A DNA stretch of 25,068 nucleotides, from positions 1-25,068 of the IMG/VR virus record IMGVR_UViG_3300005935_000126; one strand, given 5' to 3'. Both the position numbers and the translations under genes were made by a program. The DNA comes from a virus. Positions 9,510-25,068 of the stretch are shown piece by piece. How positions within the stretch are numbered: position 1 is the stretch's first letter; every line of letters starts with the position of its first letter. The notes below the pieces were generated by a model. That model ran no database searches. It saw nothing but the letters and a program-made list of their open reading frames with translations, and was not told the origin of the DNA.

Positions 9510-9983
9510 TTAGTCTATGTAGTATTCAGCTTCCACAATTATTTTTTCAATTGCAACATCTTCAGACATTGCATCTAAGTCGGAACCTTCCCAACTTTTA
9601 ACCCAAGCTTCACCCAAAGTCCATGTTCTTGCTGTAGTATCTTGCTTGTCAAGCAATTCAATGGTTATGGTTGTTCTTGAAGTTGCACTAGAAAGAGAGT
9701 CCACATATAACTGTTGCAAATCTTTATCTGCGAACATTCCACGTTCTAAGACAATAGGTTCAATTTTCTCTTTACCTTTCATCTTACGAACAGCAGAGTA
9801 ACCACCTTCTGAATATTCTAGGATACCCATTTCTCTTTTTAATCCAGATACTTTCTGAAAACCAATTCCTGTTGCAAGTCCCGGAATTGTAACTCTGAAT
9901 TTATACTTATTCAATGGGTCATTTGCCACGGAACGAACTGCGTGAACTTTCATTATCATCTTGTTAAGTATAGTTTTTAACAT
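9510..9983 (-). CDS. Tail tube protein (T4 gp19-like)
   Basis: The 157-residue product forms the inner tube of the contractile tail. The body is typical of the gp19-like family: DPLNKYKFRVTIPGLATGIGFQKVSGLKREMGILEYSEGG, a K-x-K-G-K-E segment, ERGMFADKDLQQLYVDS and a C-terminal strand pair ending VEAEYYID. Residues 1-15 precede the usual tube fold and are a leader (ILNKMIMKVHA at 5-15) that also begins the scaffold and capsid proteins. The ATG has GGAGG eight bases upstream. It directly follows the sheath gene. Confidence 0.92.
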   Translation of the reverse strand: MLKTILNKMIMKVHAVRSVANDPLNKYKFRVTIPGLATGIGFQKVSGLKREMGILEYSEGGYSAVRKMKGKEKIEPIVLERGMFADKDLQQLYVDSLSSATSRTTITIELLDKQDTTARTWTLGEAWVKSWEGSDLDAMSEDVAIEKIIVEAEYYID

Positions 9984-14219: not shown

Positions 14220-16043
14220 TTACACTATAGTTTCAACACTTGTTACCCCTGCTACAGTAGACTCTTGAATTGTTGCTTGTGCAACAGTTAGAGTATTAGT
14301 TTCAGCTACTACACCATCTGTTGTATCTGCTGATGTTTCAGCAGTTATTACACCTGCTGATGTACCATCAATTAATGCAATGTTTAATGTATCATCTGCC
14401 GCTAAAGCTTCAATAGTTGTTAAGGAAACTAACACTCCTGTCCCACCTACTGTATAGTAATCTGTTATATCAGAGTCCAAATTAAATGCAGCTCTTATTT
14501 TTGTTGCTACATCACTTGCGGTATCTCCTTCTAAAACAGCTACAGTTACAGCACCCGTTGCACTACCGAGAGCAGATGTAACAGTTGCAGTACAGTTTCC
14601 TGATGTTGTAACACTACCTATAATACCAGCTAATGTATTTGTTGATACTCCTGCGGTTACACCACTAGCTATGGTAATAGCAAGTGCTAAAGTTGCATCT
14701 GTACCTGCAGGTGTTAAAGTAGTAAATACTAAAGAAGTCCCAACTCTTTCTGTAATAGCAAAAGCCGCAATAATAACATCTGAATTTAACGCAATAACTA
14801 ATTTATCAATTACTCCTGTAATAGTATCTCCCGCTACTAAATCAACGTAAGTAGTATTTGGAGATCCTGACATATTAGCCGAAGTAACAACAACTTTAAC
14901 TGTTCCACTATTTGTGGCTACTGCTGTTACGGCAATACTTTCTTTCTGATTTATTGCTAGTACACCCGGAGTTGTACTAGTTGAAGCACCAACTGTTACA
15001 CCTGTATCATCAGCATTTGTTAAATCTAATGACAATGTTACATCATCTGCGATTTTAGCATTTGCAGTTAAAATAACGTCAGCCGTACTTGTTGTAATTG
15101 TGTACCAATCAGTTATTGCACTAACTGTTTTTAAGGCGTTCATTATCACAACGGCAACTTTAGTAGCACTATTCGCTGCTGTAAGAATTGGAATATTAAC
15201 AGCTAAAGGTGAACCCACTACACTATCAGATGTAAGGGTAAATACCATAGTTCCAGCAGTACCACTTACATGGTTGGTGACAGACATTGTTTCTACTTGT
15301 GCTGTTCCTACTGCACCACCTAAAGCATCAGTAGAACTTCCTACTGTAATTCCTGTACTTGTTGCAATTGCAATTTCTAAAGCATTATCCGGAGCTAACT
15401 TATTAACAGTTGTTAATACAACATTCGCATCCACAGTGGCATCTATTGTAAATGCTCCTGTTATTGTTGCATCAGCATTTAAAGCTGTTCTGATTGCAGA
15501 AGCAACCAAAGTTGGAGTTGTATGGACCGCAGAAGTTAATGGGACATACAAAGAATGAGGTGAACTTGTACCTAAAGCTACGGCAGTCACAGTTATTTTC
15601 AGAGAACCATTACACGTACACTGATTAGTTATGGTAATAGTCTCAACTTGATTTACTCCTACTAAAACTGTGGCTGTCTCAGCTTGTTTAGTTCCATCTG
15701 ACCATAGAACTGCATCACCTGTTATTACTACACTAGCTTCACCATTAACAAACGTTAATGTAGTGCTTGGTATAGTAGCTGTTCCTACTTCTGATGTTTC
15801 ACCAATTGTAACACCAGAAGCTATTGCATCATTAAACCAAGTACACACATTCCCGTTTTCATCTGTTAATTTTATAGTTACTCGTCTTGTCCAAGTAGCA
15901 GATGTTGTTGCTCTGGTAGTTGTCGTAGGGTCAATCACGAACTTTAATCCAGTACCTAACAATCCACTCTCTACTCCTTGCATCCATTCCATGAATGCAA
16001 CTACATTATCAGAAATACTTCTGACTTGTTTTGAACTTAACAT
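14220..16043 (-). CDS. Large repetitive beta protein, probable capsid decoration or head fibre
   Basis: A 607-residue Thr/Val/Ala-rich protein encoded directly after the capsid gene. Residues 1-35 form an N-terminal segment (KQVRSISDNVVAFMEWMQ). Residues 50-130 look like a Big/invasin-type Ig domain (RRVTIKLTDENGNVCTWF to LTFVNGEASVVIT). Four degenerate repeats of about 105-115 residues follow at roughly 131-243, 246-361, 363-473 and 474-579. Each has a [QV]-E-[ST]-[IM] strand, a V-x-[IV]-x-[VL]-L...T...VA..[IL]...L/F segment, D..I...[FY].[IT], and D-x-[TA]-L-x-[IL]-x-[IL] followed by G[VI]T.G.ST. No membrane segment or enzyme motif is seen. Surface decoration fits its place and composition but is inferred. 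GGAGG precedes the ATG by eight bases. Confidence 0.7.
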   Translation of the reverse strand: MLSSKQVRSISDNVVAFMEWMQGVESGLLGTGLKFVIDPTTTTRATTSATWTRRVTIKLTDENGNVCTWFNDAIASGVTIGETSEVGTATIPSTTLTFVNGEASVVITGDAVLWSDGTKQAETATVLVGVNQVETITITNQCTCNGSLKITVTAVALGTSSPHSLYVPLTSAVHTTPTLVASAIRTALNADATITGAFTIDATVDANVVLTTVNKLAPDNALEIAIATSTGITVGSSTDALGGAVGTAQVETMSVTNHVSGTAGTMVFTLTSDSVVGSPLAVNIPILTAANSATKVAVVIMNALKTVSAITDWYTITTSTADVILTANAKIADDVTLSLDLTNADDTGVTVGASTSTTPGVLAINQKESIAVTAVATNSGTVKVVVTSANMSGSPNTTYVDLVAGDTITGVIDKLVIALNSDVIIAAFAITERVGTSLVFTTLTPAGTDATLALAITIASGVTAGVSTNTLAGIIGSVTTSGNCTATVTSALGSATGAVTVAVLEGDTASDVATKIRAAFNLDSDITDYYTVGGTGVLVSLTTIEALAADDTLNIALIDGTSAGVITAETSADTTDGVVAETNTLTVAQATIQESTVAGVTSVETIV

Positions 16044-16076: not shown

Positions 16077-16457
16077 TTAAGTAGTTTCAATAACTACTCC
16101 ATAATCATCGTGTAACTTAGCTGTGCCCCAAATTGCATACCAAGCTAAACCTCTTTCTCTTCCGAAATCTACTACGCCATTATCTCTTAACTCAACAGGG
16201 AGGGCAACAGCTAATCCAAAATAAGCTTCACCGAAAATTACTGACTGAAATACGTCAACTGAACCAACAGCAGCATTTACAAGAGCAGCTAGATATGCAG
16301 GGTCAGCAGCACCAACAGCACCATTACGCATAAGAGTAGTTTCAATAAATCTTGTATCATCAATTTTACCAATCTCACCATTAAACAACTGCTCTGGAGC
16401 ACCATATTTGGAAGCTTCAATCCATGCTGAATCATCTCTTAAACCACGTGACTGATG
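16077..16457 (-). CDS. Major capsid protein, exon 2 (N4-gp56 family)
   Basis: The second exon encodes 126 residues, starting HQSRGLRDDSAWIEASKYGAP and continuing EQLFNGEIGKIDDTRFIETT, a strong signature of N4-gp56 family capsid proteins. The C-terminal GEAYFGLAVALPVELRDNGVVDFGRERGLAWYAIWG is also typical. It has no start codon with a ribosome binding site; a TTG exists only across the intron boundary. Joined to exon 1 at ...CFVHP/HQSRGL the reading frame is continuous and the family pattern H-P-[HDY]-Q is restored. It should not be read as a separate or broken gene. Confidence 0.93.
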   Translation of the reverse strand, partial: HQSRGLRDDSAWIEASKYGAPEQLFNGEIGKIDDTRFIETTLMRNGAVGAADPAYLAALVNAAVGSVDVFQSVIFGEAYFGLAVALPVELRDNGVVDFGRERGLAWYAIWGTAKLHDDYGVVIETT

Positions 16458-17423
16458 CAAACTGTTACTTTCCCTCTTGAGAGGTACTGACCAAGTTTTA
16501 ACTTGGCGGAGAAACTACTTCGTTGAAGGTTGTTCACTCCTTCGAGTTTCTCTCTCGTAATTTCTTACGATGTTCAGACTATATCACTATCCCCTTTTCA
16601 AGGATACTTCAGCCCATAGTCGTTGCAAGGGTATTTGGTTTATCAATGGTATAAGGTCTTTTTATCTTATATCTCATTGACGGAATTATAAAAGGCTCAA
16701 TAATATTCAAAAACTTTTGTGTAAACTCAGTACCGATATAAATCTTAATTCTCTGCTTCATAGATTTACTATTTTTCTTTTTAGATATTATTCCAAACTT
16801 TATGTCTAGCATATCTATTAGTAAATCCACTTCACTTTCCTTGTACCTATCTGTGGATAATATTATTACTGAATTTCTTGTTTTCAGTCTAGGTGTTATG
16901 CTTACATACTCACAACCGCCATCATCCATAAACCAATAGGCTAAGCTTCTCTCGGTAACTAAATCTACTACATTATGAGGAACTCCTCTTACATTCCCAC
17001 TCCAAAACATTGAAAGTATTTCTTTTAAATTACTAGAAGATAGTGTGTTAAAATACCATACTGGATATTTTCTATCTTTCTCTTTAGGTGGAGAACCACA
17101 TAAATTTTTAAATATTTTATATTTATGTGTTACATAGTTTTTTTGTTTCAAGCAATGAGTAATTTGAAACCTTGTACTTGTACTTGAAACATTATGTATT
17201 GCTATATCACCTAAACAACACCCTATCAATACTTCTTTCTGTAATTCATTCATATATTTTCTCCTATCTTGTTTTATATAAGAGTAACATATGTTCAATG
17301 TTTTATCTAGTGTCATCAACCTTCTCTCAGGATTGGCGTATATACGTGATTTGATATACTTAGCGTCCCCTGATTTCGCCAAAATTATTCCTTCACGACT
17401 TACGCCGCAATGCCCCCACTATA
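16458..17423 (-). mobile_element. Group I self-splicing intron in the capsid gene (966 nt), carrying a homing endonuclease
   Basis: Exon 1 ends ...GTTCACCCT and the intron begins TATAGTGGGGGC, so CCCU can pair with GGGG (terminal U-G wobble) as P1 over a 6-base loop. The Q-like element CCAATCCTGAG lies near 17325-17336. GACTAT (16616-16621) and ATAGTC (16577-16582, within GATATAGTCTGAACA) can pair as P7 and match R and S element sequences. The 3' part has hairpins typical of P9 (CGTAA-GAAA-TTACG, a long GAGAAACT/AGTTTCTC stem, CCAAGT-TAAA-ACTTGG, CCTC-TCAA-GAGG), and the intron ends in G at 16458. Removing it joins the capsid exons exactly in phase. The splice sites are predicted, not measured. 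Confidence 0.92.
16609..17253 (-). CDS. LAGLIDADG homing endonuclease encoded in the intron
   Basis: The 214-residue protein should cut intron-less capsid alleles and so spread the intron. Two LAGLIDADG motifs are visible: VLIGCCLGDIAI at residues 8-19 (acidic Asp16) and LAYWFMDDGG at 104-113 (Asp110/111). The second has the form common in the LAGLIDADG group of intron-encoded DNA endonucleases, with downstream ILSTDRYKESEVDLLIDML and PFIIPSMRYKI. Start: ATG at 17251-17253 has AGGAG seven bases upstream, and the frame upstream is open but part of the intron core. The last codons overlap the 5' strand of P7. It appears intact. Confidence 0.9.
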   Translation of the reverse strand: MNELQKEVLIGCCLGDIAIHNVSSTSTRFQITHCLKQKNYVTHKYKIFKNLCGSPPKEKDRKYPVWYFNTLSSSNLKEILSMFWSGNVRGVPHNVVDLVTERSLAYWFMDDGGCEYVSITPRLKTRNSVIILSTDRYKESEVDLLIDMLDIKFGIISKKKNSKSMKQRIKIYIGTEFTQKFLNIIEPFIIPSMRYKIKRPYTIDKPNTLATTMG

Positions 17424-18083
17424 AGGGTGAACAAAACAAATCCAGAACCCAAAATTGAATTTTGTTGCATTGTTTGTAGCAAGAACTTCAATAGCATCTT
17501 TAACAGTGGACACTTTAAAAGTACAAGTAACATCCAATGTTGCTCTTGAAGAAATAACTGTTCCTGTGCTTGTTTTTGCATAAACAACATTTGTACCTGT
17601 CAATGCAACATCCCTTAAATCAGTATCAAGAACTAAAGCGTAATCCCTTGCAAGTAATATTGCTGCAGAACCCATAACACTATCAAAAGAAGCAACGATT
17701 AACAACTGTGAAACTGTAACTCCATTACCCTTTTCAAGAACAGTGATAGGTGTCAAGCTACCGCTTAAAGCTTTAGTCTCAATACGAGTTCCCTCTGTTA
17801 ATGTTCCACCCTGTGTAAGATTGTCATACACAAGCATATTAATTGTAAGTCCAGGCTCTACACCTAGCTCAGTTTTAATATCTGTGAATTGAAGAAATCT
17901 CATAATAGGTAATGCCTGAAACTCAATTTCTTTCGAGTAAACTGTCTTAACGGACTCACTGAACGTACCTGCTGTATGACCATCCAAAGCACCTGATACA
18001 CCATCAGTAGTAGTCATAAAACTTGTTGCGTGAGCCTTCATGATAAATTTACTGAATATTGAATTTAAAAATCTTATTTTCAT
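17424..18083 (-). CDS. Major capsid protein, exon 1 (N4-gp56 family)
   Basis: Exon 1 gives 220 residues of the N4-gp56-type capsid protein, and the spliced product would have about 346. The leader IFSKFIMKAHA occupies residues 9-19. The body follows with VYSKEIEFQALPIMRFLQFTDIKTELGVEPG, TINMLVYDNLTQGGTLTEGTRIETKALS, LLARDYALVLDTDLRDVALTGTNVVYA and NNATKFNFGFWICFVHP. Two ATGs lie close together. The one at 18087-18089 abuts GGAGGT with no spacing, while the one at 18081-18083 has six bases, so the latter is chosen. Read unspliced, the frame runs only a few codons into the intron and stops. Confidence 0.92.
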
Positions 18084-18105
18084 CTTCATACCTCCAATTT
18101 AATAT

Positions 18106-18909
18106 TTACTTTCCCATGCCTATCTTCTTTCTGAATTCGGCATATTCTTCTCTACTCATATCTTTTATATCTTGAGGCTTTATATTTTTTAAATCCATTT
18201 TAGATGTACTTACATTTGCTGGAGGAACTTTTGTTGGAGGAACTTTTCCTGCTTTTCCCACTATGTCTGTATATCTGGTTTTTGCAATTACTATAGAAGC
18301 ATCAATTTCTTCCTTGGTTAATCCCATTACAAGTTCAGGAATTAATGTCTCTCCCTCTTCACGAAGTTTAGTTTCTCGGTATAACTTAATTTCATATTCA
18401 GATTTTATTTTATCTTCAATAGCTGTTACATCTGCCGTATTTTTTGTTGCGGTTTCTTCTGCAATTTTAAGTTTACCTGTGAGAGCTTCAACATCTTTAA
18501 GAAGTTTAGTAACCTGTTCTGACTCAGATTTAGTTGAACCGGAGCGTACATCTTTTAACTGAGTTTCTAAACTAGCAACTAGAATTTCCTTCTCTTGAAT
18601 TTTAATCAAGTTCTGGTTATTCTTATCAGTCATTTCCTGTATTTTCCCTTTCAACTCTGTTAGTTGTGGGTAGAGCTTATTCTTTTCCTCAGTTCTTGCT
18701 TTTGCAATTAAATCTTCATAGTTTACACTAATTGGCGGTGGTTCAGTACCTGCAGGTGGTGTTACTGGTGGTACAACTGGCGGTACTACTGGCGGTACTA
18801 CTGGCACAACTGGTGGTGTTCCCCCTACTTCTTCTGCATAAACTTTTAAAATTAATTTCCCGATAATACCTTTGATAGTTTTTCCGTTTAATAGACATGA
18901 TTTCTTCAT
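18106..18909 (-). CDS. Scaffold-like capsid assembly protein
   Basis: A 267-residue protein between portal and capsid genes, where phage scaffolds are found. Residues 15-25 (IIGKLILKVYA) are the leader shared with capsid and tube. Residues 30-57 are a Pro/Val-rich linker with repeated PPVV. Residues 60-165 are charged and predicted coiled coil by eye (LTELKGKIQEMTDKNNQN, VTKLLKDVEALTGKLKIAEE). A short basic C-terminal segment ends MSREEYAEFRKKIGMGK, which fits the capsid-binding tail of scaffolds. The start ATG has AGGAGGT eleven bases upstream, rather far. It is not similar to a protease. Confidence 0.82.
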   Translation of the reverse strand: MKKSCLLNGKTIKGIIGKLILKVYAEEVGGTPPVVPVVPPVVPPVVPPVTPPAGTEPPPISVNYEDLIAKARTEEKNKLYPQLTELKGKIQEMTDKNNQNLIKIQEKEILVASLETQLKDVRSGSTKSESEQVTKLLKDVEALTGKLKIAEETATKNTADVTAIEDKIKSEYEIKLYRETKLREEGETLIPELVMGLTKEEIDASIVIAKTRYTDIVGKAGKVPPTKVPPANVSTSKMDLKNIKPQDIKDMSREEYAEFRKKIGMGK

Positions 18910-20513: not shown

Positions 20514-23231
20514 CTACCTCCGTTTCGCTGTTATTTTATTTCTTGAAGTATAAAATCTACTTTGTTTCTTTTTCATTATTATATTTTCCTTCTCAGTCTC
20601 AACTACTACTGTATCAGTTTGGTCTTTTGTTCCATACACAGCTAAAGCATAACTGTCTGGATAATCGTCATGAGCTCCTCTGTTTGGTGGGTGACAAACT
20701 TGCATTACTGCGCCTTTATAGTTCTTCTGCAAATCTCCCATCTGGCTTAGAAATTGTGTGTACTCTCTGGTTCTTACTGTCATTTCTCCTCTTGGGAACA
20801 TTGACCTTTTGGACTTAATTTCTCCATCTAAATACTTGTACATATCAGACTTAGATTGAGTACTAAACACAAAAGGAATTACCTCAAAAGGAACATTGGC
20901 TTTAAACCTATCTGCAAGTGAAGCTTCTTTTGTCGAGTCAATTACTAACCTTACAATATTAAAGTTTTTGAAGAAATCCATGCATATATGATATTGTGCT
21001 TCATAATCTTCACCGAAAATCTCTTTCCAACAAACAATATCTGTATAATAGGCTTTGAAGATTTCCATCTCATTTGTCTCTTCATTGTACCGACCTTCAT
21101 CTATGACAGGGTTATCCCAGTCTACTTTAACAACTGTTATAATTGTACTATCTGTTTTAGCTGCAACATCTATACCTACTACATGGCTATTTAGTCTATT
21201 ATATTCTTCTAATTCTTTCGTTGGGTCACCATTATCTCGTTCATATCTTAGAACATCATCTATGAAAGAACCTCTTTCAAACAACCATTCTAGTTTGTAA
21301 GACATTCTAAACTCATCTGAATGTTCCCCATATCTGAACTTCTCTCCCTCTATGTATTTAGCATATGAAGGATTATATTTACACCCTATTTTGTAATCAA
21401 ACTCATAATGATTCTTTAAGTGTAACTGTCCATTGTCAAAGAACTTTTTATTTCTATCGATTGAATTAAAGAAGTCGCCCTTATAGGTTGAAGAAGTTCC
21501 TATCTTAGCTATACTTGCATTATAAAATGCTCCCATAGGCATGATGCTGTTAGAACTAATCATGTTATTTGCTATAAAATTTCTTCCCTCAGTTTTTAAA
21601 CAATAAGTATGCTTAACTCCCGAACTGACACAAGAAGTAACTTTATAAAATCTTATATTATTACTATAATGTTTAGATTTATTCCTAGTAACTCTATTTT
21701 GTATTTTATTAAGTGCTTCATCTAATAAATGTTGTTTTTTAAACAATTTAATATTATTCCCAAACCTGTTTAAATCTAAAACTGATTTTAGGGTTATTAT
21801 GTGTATTATTTTTGCATTAATACTTAATCCTTTGTTATTTTCTCTACTAAACATAGTAGTATGTATCCCAAATTTTAAGTATACATCCTTTAACTGTTTT
21901 ACAAGTTTCTCTGATATATTTGCAAATGATATATGAGGTTTATTGTAGCAATCTGCAACACAACCATCAGTCTCTATCAATCCCTCAATAACCCCTGTAT
22001 AGAAAGATTTTGAGTACAATTTATCAGGTAAACATTTATTAACACCTGTTACATTGTGCATTCCTATTTCTCTAAACCACACTGTAAGTGGGTTACTGTT
22101 TTTACAATTTGTAGGTGTAGAAAAACAAACTTCCTGCATACCATTGCTTGGATTGTAATTACACTCTGTCATATATACATTTTCACCAAAAACTTTTTTA
22201 ATAATTTCTATAAGTCTTTTATTTGTTGATAAATCACCTATAAAATGAGGTGTTCCTACTAAACAACCATCACCTAAAAAATAACCTAGTATCAAACCTT
22301 TTTCATAATCATTTTCTTGTTCTTGTGCAAAATAAGGTAAAATATCAGGAACTCCAATCCTTAAAGAAGAATATTTATCGAAACTATCTATTATATCTTT
22401 TACAGTCCTGAATTTAGGTCCTCCTTTTTTGGTATTTTTACTATAGGTGTAAAATTGGTGATTTAAAGTGGCTTCAATAGTATCTCCATTGTTCAGTTTT
22501 AACTTGTACACTTCTTGCTTTCCATTATCGTAAAACTCTACGGGAGTTTTAGAAGTAAGATAATTCATACTAGAATTAAAAAGTACTACTTCACCCTTTT
22601 TCTGTTTAACTAAAGTTTCAATATCTAAATATTCTCCGTTACTCATAAGAATTCTAGTATCATAAGTTAAGCATTTCTTAATCTTAAAGTCAGATACATC
22701 CTGGGCTTCTTCTATTATAATAAGCTTTAAACTTTCACCCTCAATATTACTATTTTCGGATGCAGATAATGAAGTTGCCCAAGATCCATTTGACAAAGAA
22801 CAAGTCTGACCATTACTCGTTGTAAAATACAAATTAAATTCGGGGTCTTGTAATATTTTCTTACACGTCTTACTCTGTAGCCTTGCTCTTATTCGATTGA
22901 AGGTAATTTGTGATTGTCTTAATGAAGGAGCGAATATACCTACCCACACACCATCTTCAAATCGCATAATTCTTTTATCTTCTTTAAACATTGGCAAAGT
23001 TGCAAGGTAGGGAAGGAATATCATTACCCCACCTACAGTAACAGCAACTGTTTCCGATTTTCCTATTTGCCTTGAGAACAAGGCTGTCAATTCTTCACCA
23101 TCATTTTCTAGTAAAGACCTTATTAATCTTTTACTAAACTGCTCTTGGTAAAGAAACAACTTTATCCCTGAATACATAGCACAAAAATCATATACTACAT
23201 TGGTTAATTCTGTAATTTTCATTAACGCCAT
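20514..23231 (-). CDS. Terminase large subunit with embedded intein (905-residue precursor, about 530 residues after splicing)
   Basis: The packaging motor has a variant Walker A (SRQIGKSET, residues 53-61), Walker B (LIIIEEAQDV, about 170-179), and the coupling motif GTSS (578-581) right after the intein. The RNase H-like nuclease domain has D688 (VVGIDVAAKTD), D765 (RLVIDSTKEA) and D855/D856/D859 (HDDYPDS). Residues 187-561 form the intein, listed separately. Without it 530 residues remain, normal for TerL. The first ATG is used, five bases after GAGGT. No small terminase subunit is present in the window; it is expected upstream, beyond the right edge. Confidence 0.95.
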   Translation of the reverse strand: MALMKITELTNVVYDFCAMYSGIKLFLYQEQFSKRLIRSLLENDGEELTALFSRQIGKSETVAVTVGGVMIFLPYLATLPMFKEDKRIMRFEDGVWVGIFAPSLRQSQITFNRIRARLQSKTCKKILQDPEFNLYFTTSNGQTCSLSNGSWATSLSASENSNIEGESLKLIIIEEAQDVSDFKIKKCLTYDTRILMSNGEYLDIETLVKQKKGEVVLFNSSMNYLTSKTPVEFYDNGKQEVYKLKLNNGDTIEATLNHQFYTYSKNTKKGGPKFRTVKDIIDSFDKYSSLRIGVPDILPYFAQEQENDYEKGLILGYFLGDGCLVGTPHFIGDLSTNKRLIEIIKKVFGENVYMTECNYNPSNGMQEVCFSTPTNCKNSNPLTVWFREIGMHNVTGVNKCLPDKLYSKSFYTGVIEGLIETDGCVADCYNKPHISFANISEKLVKQLKDVYLKFGIHTTMFSRENNKGLSINAKIIHIITLKSVLDLNRFGNNIKLFKKQHLLDEALNKIQNRVTRNKSKHYSNNIRFYKVTSCVSSGVKHTYCLKTEGRNFIANNMISSNSIMPMGAFYNASIAKIGTSSTYKGDFFNSIDRNKKFFDNGQLHLKNHYEFDYKIGCKYNPSYAKYIEGEKFRYGEHSDEFRMSYKLEWLFERGSFIDDVLRYERDNGDPTKELEEYNRLNSHVVGIDVAAKTDSTIITVVKVDWDNPVIDEGRYNEETNEMEIFKAYYTDIVCWKEIFGEDYEAQYHICMDFFKNFNIVRLVIDSTKEASLADRFKANVPFEVIPFVFSTQSKSDMYKYLDGEIKSKRSMFPRGEMTVRTREYTQFLSQMGDLQKNYKGAVMQVCHPPNRGAHDDYPDSYALAVYGTKDQTDTVVVETEKENIIMKKKQSRFYTSRNKITAKRR
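21549..22673 (-). mobile_element. Intein with LAGLIDADG homing endonuclease inside terminase
   Basis: The 375-residue element starts with Cys187 (CLTYDTRILMSNGEYLDIE, block A) and ends with Asn561, followed by Ser562 as the +1 nucleophile. Block B is TIEATLNHQF (251-260), with the TxxH histidine at 258. LAGLIDADG motifs are LILGYFLGDG (313-322) and GVIEGLIETDG (413-423). Block F/G is NFIANNMISSN. The residue before the terminal Asn is Ser instead of the usual His, an uncommon variant that can slow splicing but does not exclude it. Insertion is between Walker B and the coupling motif, a functionally essential place. Endonuclease and splice blocks look intact. Confidence 0.93.
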
Positions 23232-23538: not shown

Positions 23539-25068
23539 TCAAATCACCTCTTCATTTTCTGGAATAGTTGTTACTGACATTACGGGTATTCTTTCTGAAA
23601 GTGATAACGTAGGTAGTCTTTCTACACCTGATACAAAACACTGGTAAAAAATTGTTTCTGCAAGGTACTCTATATAGTCTCCAATATTACTATTAGCTGT
23701 TATATTCTTATTAACTACTATTATAACTGAACCTTCAACTTCTATTTCAGCAATTAAATTATGGGTGACATTTTTACCTACAATGGGTATGACTGAAACA
23801 GTACTTGTTACTTCTTTTAACTTTACCCTATATAACTCTCCTGAAACAGTTGTAGTTGCTGTAATTTCTTTAACTCTAGCTCTTGGTATTCTTCCATCAA
23901 TATTAATATATGAAGTTAATGTTTTATAGGTAGTTCGAGTAATATTACCCAAAATATTTGTTAGAGCATCTGGTAACTTAATAATAGCTTTTTGAACAGT
24001 AGATACCACAACAATATTAGAAGTTATATTTTTATATGTAACCCTACTAATTTCTGCACTAATATCTGTATTTGAAAGATAGGACTCTTCTCTACCCTTT
24101 ATTACACTTGCTGATATATTAGTGGTAGTCTGTATTGATTTAGTTATAACTCTTCCTACAGTACTACTTACTAAAGTATTACTCGTTACTGATTTAGCTC
24201 CACCGGATAAAGCATCTATGCTCCCTACAACATTAACATTTGTTAATAAAGTTTTAGGTATTGTTTTATTTACTGCTCCTATAACTTCTGAATTTGACTG
24301 AGTATTTTTCAATGAATTCTTAGTTACAGTAGATACAACGATAGAATTCCCAACAATATCTTTTAAGTAAGAAACTAATTTTATTGGTATAGAAGCCTCA
24401 ACTAAAATATTAGCTACTATACTCTTATTTATTTCTTTACTTAATACCCCACTTACTACATTACTTCCCAAAATATTTTTACTTATTTCTTTGTTAATAT
24501 TACTAGTGGTACTGCTATTTGAAATAATATTTTTATTAACGTGTGTTAATAATGTTCCTGCAACTTCAGTTGATGAAATTATATCTTTAATAGCTTTAGC
24601 CATTGTTCCAGTAACATCTACATTTGCGGTAATGTTTTTATTAACAATTGTTAGTAATGTTCCATTTACAAGACTACTTGAAATTATATTTTTATTAACA
24701 TTTGTTAATACTGTACCTGCAACATCTACATTCGTGGTGATGTTTTTATTAATAATCTTTCCTATGATTGACTCTAAAGTAACGTTTGCAGTAATACCTT
24801 TATTGTAATCAGTAAGTTTTTCTACTGAACCTAGTACTGATACTTCCGAAGTATTACTTTTATTAACATTCGTTAATAGTGTTCCAGTTGTAGCACTATT
24901 CGAGATTACATTTTTACTAGTAATTCTTGTTGTTGTCCCTAAAACATTTACATTCATAGTAACGTTTTTATCAGTAACCCTTACTGTGGTTGACTCTAAA
25001 GTAACATTTGCAGTAATACCTTTATTATAACTAGTAAGTTTTTCTGCTGAACCTAGTACTGATACTTC
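23539..25068 (-). CDS. Repeat-built fibrous protein (partial, 5' end outside window)
   Basis: The frame is open to the right edge of the window (510 codons, 509 residues plus stop). The first ATG in the window (24955-24957) is internal, because the same repeats continue upstream of it in frame without a ribosome binding site. About 17-20-residue repeats fill most of it: consensus G-[TS]-[VLM]-x(3)-[VI]-N-K-[NS]-I-x-[AS]-[NS]-x-x-V-x-G, clearest in the first 170 residues. They become more divergent later, and the last about 55 residues (YLAETIFYQCFVSGVERLPTLSL) are different. Thr, Val, Ile, Asn and Ser dominate; no signal peptide can be judged. A beta-structured fibre or adhesin fits the composition, as inference. 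Similar repeats open the gene at the left edge. Confidence 0.7.
   Translation of the reverse strand, partial: EVSVLGSAEKLTSYNKGITANVTLESTTVRVTDKNVTMNVNVLGTTTRITSKNVISNSATTGTLLTNVNKSNTSEVSVLGSVEKLTDYNKGITANVTLESIIGKIINKNITTNVDVAGTVLTNVNKNIISSSLVNGTLLTIVNKNITANVDVTGTMAKAIKDIISSTEVAGTLLTHVNKNIISNSSTTSNINKEISKNILGSNVVSGVLSKEINKSIVANILVEASIPIKLVSYLKDIVGNSIVVSTVTKNSLKNTQSNSEVIGAVNKTIPKTLLTNVNVVGSIDALSGGAKSVTSNTLVSSTVGRVITKSIQTTTNISASVIKGREESYLSNTDISAEISRVTYKNITSNIVVVSTVQKAIIKLPDALTNILGNITRTTYKTLTSYINIDGRIPRARVKEITATTTVSGELYRVKLKEVTSTVSVIPIVGKNVTHNLIAEIEVEGSVIIVVNKNITANSNIGDYIEYLAETIFYQCFVSGVERLPTLSLSERIPVMSVTTIPENEEVI
24771..25068. repeat. Near-identical direct repeat, 222-bp offset, within the fibrous protein gene
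   Basis: A stretch of about 77 bases at 24771-24847 recurs at 24993-25068 with about five substitutions, an offset of 222 bases (74 codons, about four 18-residue repeats). The second copy runs off the window. This indicates a recent in-frame duplication or gene conversion among the repeat units. Confidence 0.75.

Follow-up and report, generated by a model that had tools for sequence, protein, structure and literature searches.

A probable mobile group I intron, carrying its own LAGLIDADG endonuclease gene, in a viral major capsid gene of the N4-gp56 family

The question raised by this locus was whether two partial capsid frames, lying 966 nt apart, are the exons of one gene or two separate genes. 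In the window, the whole 25,068-nt stretch of viral DNA analyzed here, ORF and profile analysis located a minus-strand N4-gp56 major capsid gene interrupted at 17423..16458. Exon 1 (17424..18083, minus strand) ends in CACCCT and matched positions 7-216 of phrog_1357 (E 1.3e-21), and exon 2 (16077..16457, minus strand) begins with CATCAG and matched positions 217-345 (E 5.4e-21). Because these two matches adjoin on one profile (216/217), with E-values of about 1e-21 each, the capsid match was beyond chance; the two N4-gp56 frames and the 966-nt distance given in a preliminary description were right in all coordinates.

Exon 1 starts at ATG 18083; an upstream ATG at 18089 is also open, yet is just 1 nt from GGAGG. 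The exon 1 frame continues for seven codons into the insert and then meets TAA 17400. Excision of 17423..16458 gives the in-phase junction ...CFVHP|HQSRG... and a protein of 346 aa, counted from ATG 18083. The joined protein scored 124.5 bits against TIGR04387 (N4-gp56 major capsid protein), above the curated cut-off of 60 bits, whereas the halves scored 58.1 and 53 bits, each below it; the joined product is an N4-gp56 capsid, as had been proposed. Compared with public phages, it produced one unbroken alignment over the junction (e.g., Streptomyces phage BRock, 44%). Automated gene calling would plausibly list three genes at this split locus.

The capsid junction was uninterrupted at residue 222/223 in 104 of the 108 capsid loci compared in viral contigs. 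Three of the four remaining loci were overlapping pieces of a single intron-bearing contig, IMGVR_3300025736_000891, the sole other carrier among the 108. This sibling contig differed from the window at 6 of 5977 aligned bases, with no difference inside the intron and 99.9% identity over the insert and flanks, and the two may come from the same population. HP|HQ was kept in almost all relatives aligned at the junction, and the junction DNA CACCCT|CATCAG, or a version one base off, occurred in several relatives (identical in L004). The predicted cut after CACCCT (17424) and before CATCAG (16457) restores HPHQ in phase, in agreement with the aligned relatives; a join elsewhere than HP/HQ in relatives had been named as evidence against it, and the aligned relatives join at HP/HQ. 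Two other placements of the boundaries, shifted by one base 3' from U17424 or using G16452, were discarded: they break the omega-G or produce HPYQ or HPYSSR, which are absent from relatives with an aligned junction. The fourth exception among the 108 loci (L029, capsid 901-1918) was rejected as a second split capsid, as it has a frameshift close to the HP|HQ site instead of an insert. That frameshift in an intronless relative is either a sequencing error or a real lesion.

A putative scaffold gene (18106..18909, minus strand) lies directly before the capsid gene. The capsid (17400..18089), putative scaffold and tail tube (9510..9983) frames, all on the minus strand, carry similar short leaders ending in K(A/V)(H/Y)A (SKFIMKAHA, GKLILKVYA and NKMIMKVHA). 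The leader is also found on the capsids of L001, L004, L005 and L007, and it could be a common protease-processing signal. Directly after the capsid gene, 14220..16043 (minus strand) encodes a seemingly repeat-built protein of 607 aa, which had no family match and is possibly a head decoration. Another protein, of 472 aa (23539..24957, minus strand), is composed of short degenerate repeats of the form SNxxVxGTVxxxxxK and had no Pfam match.

A reading of the sequence allowed helices P1 to P9, with three extra 3' hairpins, to be written for the minus strand of the insert in the expected order and with the expected linkers. P1 (17414..17427) pairs CCCU of the exon (17427-17424) with GGGG of the intron (17417-17414) and places U17424 opposite G17417, forming a U.G pair at the 5' splice site. 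P2 (17393..17410) is a 7-bp stem (UUGCGGC/GUCGUGA) with the GNRA loop GUAA. The 5' strand of P3 (17378..17384, UUUUGGC) has its partner, GCUGAAG, at 16613-16607. P4 (17327..17373; UCAGG 17373-17369 with CCUGA 17331-17327), which contains elements P and Q, encloses P5 (GUAUAU/AUAUAC), and the 5' strand of P6 (17319..17323, AAGGU) pairs with ACCCUU at 16632-16627 with one bulge. The 3' catalytic domain (16552..16625) comprises R (CAACGACUA), P7 (16577..16621; GACUAU 16621-16616 with AUAGUC 16582-16577), the 3' strand of P3, P8 (16588..16606; UAUCCUU/GGGGAUA), S (GAUAUAGUC) and P9 (16555..16570; UCGUAA/UUACGA, GAAA loop). Hairpins P9.1-P9.3 follow (16473..16550; GAAACU..AGUUUC, CCAAGU..ACUUGG and CCUCU..AGAGG). 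P9.0 (16459..16575), as read from the sequence, would pair GAAC 16575-16572 with GUUU 16462-16459 and adjoin the omega-G, the final intron base G16458, whose position is set by the protein junction. P10 (16455..16457), between CAU of exon 2 and GUG of the intron (17419-17417), is weak at 3 bp, and the third G of its GUG strand alternatively pairs in P1. P1 has four pairs only and P3 includes three G.U pairs, which were counted against the structure. The P1, Q-, R- and S-like elements and P9-type hairpins announced for the insert were all located, along with P.

Covariance models were searched against the same region. No RF00028 match was obtained over the insert at the curated threshold: the insert reached 26.6 bits, and then only when the 1.2-kb region was searched alone, against a gathering score of 50 bits, which is a search threshold and not a defining biological feature. 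Neither the Rfam family search of the record nor an E-value search of the whole window found the group I intron. The RF00028 score was low because the endonuclease ORF splits the core, parting Q from R, and the 5' helices are misplaced inside the ORF. Of the RF00028 check that had been suggested, the match itself was present and the curated score was not reached.

A second covariance model, R1, was made from the 3' domains of 32 other viral introns, gathered from viral contigs by a general R...S pattern and aligned without the window. Its best match in the whole window was 16625..16552 on the minus strand, with every modelled pair formed and standard (53 bits, E 4.3e-13), and this score is partly built in because the training introns were chosen by R/S words that the window shares. 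The next-best match in the window had an E-value of 0.24. The lack of any group I model match, which had been listed as evidence against an intron, was not what we found. Strong covariation was present at P8 and P9 in the training alignment (140 double-changed cells vs. 38 in shuffles). R1 also matched the sibling contig, Microcystis phage MaeS, Klebsiella phage phiKp_21 and Twort, and gave no match in the intronless relatives searched.

The P3 and P4 strands recurred with equal spacing and compensating changes in four other introns (L148, L172, L175 and L195). P3 takes the forms CUUGGC/GCCAAG, CUUUGC/GCAGAG, CUUCAC/GUGAAG and UUUGGC/GCCAAA in these introns, and P4 is UCAGG/CCUGA in the window and L195 and UGCGG/CCGCA in L148 and L172. 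This covariation is drawn from other phage introns, the window's own lineage providing one further locus at 99.9% identity. A loose pairing descriptor of P3/P4/P7/P8 fitted 36% of shuffles and, with equal G-C pairs, 6 of 3000; shuffling of the helix arrangement is by itself moderately informative, and the loose descriptor was dropped as stand-alone evidence for being too permissive. An 18-base match to the R word in L033 was discarded as chance, as it falls in a coding stretch of another gene, and a DNA search of phages with the 5' half of the intron returned no match. Through R1, the P1-P9 core, the U.G pair in P1 and the omega-G, the identification of the insert as a group I intron was borne out.

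A decayed copy that no longer splices, or an artefact of assembly, would be compatible with a metagenomic contig and with an Rfam score under the cut-off. This explanation is very improbable, as the second contig has the same insert and flanks with the intron unchanged, the capsid exons and the endonuclease frame are intact, and all modelled core pairs are formed.

The endonuclease gene described inside the insert was recovered by profile searches. It encodes a LAGLIDADG homing endonuclease of 214 aa (16609..17253, minus strand), with ATG 17253 after AGGAG and its stop, TGA, in the 3' strand of P3, and it sits in the P6 loop. PF03161 was matched at E 2e-32 by a longer ORF from 17382, and the closest PDB chains were I-SceI-like (E 1e-24 to 3e-17), first the intron-encoded endonuclease 6x1j (1.2e-24) and then I-SceI. 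Two LAGLIDADG motifs with acidic residues, LIGCCLGDI and LAYWFMDDGG, can be read in the protein. The viral contigs contained one 100% match, in the sibling contig, and weak matches came from one phage record and one plasmid record; no relatives were confirmed in 84,980 genomes. Candidate target sites are intact and nearly identical in the intronless relatives.

Invasion of the capsid gene by an endonuclease gene could also have left a fractured gene, whose fragments would be made separately and co-assemble without splicing. Such fragments would be accommodated by the exon 1 stop, seven codons beyond the junction, and by TTG 16460, which is in frame with exon 2. We consider this very improbable, since the core is a complete group I core with limits exactly at the in-phase junction, since P1, P9.0, the omega-G and a precise restoration would be unexpected from bare gene invasion, and since no clear ribosome-binding site was seen at a useful distance upstream of TTG 16460. 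Identity as an intein or as a group II intron can practically be discounted: although the neighboring terminase does carry an intein, the insert is out of frame (TAA 17400; endonuclease stop TGA 16609) and is without an intein splicing domain, its R, S, P7 and P9 are group I elements, and the region had no Rfam group II match. The terminase intein occupies about residues 185-561 of the large terminase (20514..23231, minus strand), with an N-terminal Cys, the end ..SSN|S and a LAGLIDADG_3 domain (intein_Nterm 3e-13; Intein_splicing 2.4e-11).

We therefore consider it very likely, at a probability of roughly 0.93, that the major capsid gene contains a mobile group I intron, namely the insert (16458..17423, minus strand), which folds, excises itself and homes by means of its own endonuclease. 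The split gene, the in-phase junction, the intronless relatives, the core structure and the endonuclease family are established for the capsid locus, and for the chemistry, the splicing in vivo and the homing to the HP|HQ site we infer the following course. The transcribed intron RNA would fold through P1-P10, and the first attack would be made by guanosine just 3' of U17424, a base that the U.G pair in P1 holds in place. A second attack, by the released end of exon 1 just after the omega-G at 16458, would then join CACCCT to CATCAG and give the 346-aa capsid. In co-infecting relatives whose capsid allele lacks the intron, the I-SceI-like LAGLIDADG enzyme would cleave that allele near the HP|HQ codons, and its repair would copy the intron in.

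The last codons of the endonuclease gene (..LATTMG*) traverse the 3' strand of P6 and the 5' strand of P7, and the stop falls within the 3' strand of P3. Because of this overlap, translation to the end should block folding of the core, and endonuclease translation and ribozyme folding may compete. In T4 introns, ribosomes influence splicing. It is conceivable, if doubtful, that endonuclease synthesis and splicing of the capsid message exclude each other and form a built-in switch that times homing against shell production.

Our findings indicate that an intron can go unseen by both family models and a routine Rfam search, even in the gene for a key structural protein. The capsid halves are each under the family cut-off, and the intron is under the RF00028 score because its core is split by an ORF. 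Capsid genes split like that of the window would enter records as truncated or missing. The pattern CAACGACTA..GATATAGTC retrieved at least 120 viral stretches (L114-L233), of which the ones with a short R-S spacing mostly resemble group I introns. Searches by such an R...S pattern offer a quick route to introns missed by Rfam.

Capsid introns with endonucleases have already been published, and the window is a further example of a known element type that adds an N4-gp56 gene to the capsid genes with an intron. A full-text literature search for N4-gp56 and intron returned no report of N4-gp56 capsid introns in the text it covered, and the family may be unreported as a capsid-intron host. Over nearly its full length, including both LAGLIDADG motifs, the window endonuclease is similar to I-SceI and PDB 6x1j. 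I-SceI comes from yeast mitochondria, and unlike I-SceI, the window enzyme is predicted to target a phage capsid gene. Among viral introns, those of the L195 type, with a short P7-P3-P8, share the R/P3/P8/S/P9 layout of the window, and L195 itself has the same P4 (UCAGG/CCUGA), nearly the same P3 strands and about 1 kb from Q to R. The P8-S-P9 sequence also resembles that of the Twort nrdE intron (AF485080) and of the RNA polymerase beta intron of Serratia phage Totoro. Both of these encode HNH instead of LAGLIDADG endonucleases and occupy other host genes, and an additional stretch of about 60 bases separates P7 from P3 in Totoro, whose intron, at 49 bits, is also just under the RF00028 score of 50.

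A capsid intron is cited for lactococcal Tuc2009 in PMC3706429. In mycobacteriophage LittleE, splicing of a capsid intron of about 820 nt was shown by RT-PCR and N-terminal sequencing, and its authors considered it most likely group I (PMC3706429). Like the window, LittleE has a major capsid host gene, a final U in exon 1, a final G in the intron and a LAGLIDADG-like endonuclease inside (PMC3706429). LittleE is an actinobacteriophage with an HK97-type capsid and its endonuclease gene lies on the opposite strand, whereas the window has an N4-gp56 capsid and an endonuclease on the coding strand within P6. A combination of group I introns in core genes, capsid included, with a terminase intein is described as typical of Delta-group crAss-like phages, and the Delta and Zeta groups share the window's pair of a capsid group I intron and a large terminase intein (PMC7886860). 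The crAss-like phages are a different lineage, and their introns were recognized mainly by endonuclease domains, whereas the core and splice sites were worked out for the window. With the terminase intein in the same genome, the window repeats the crAss-like phage pattern.
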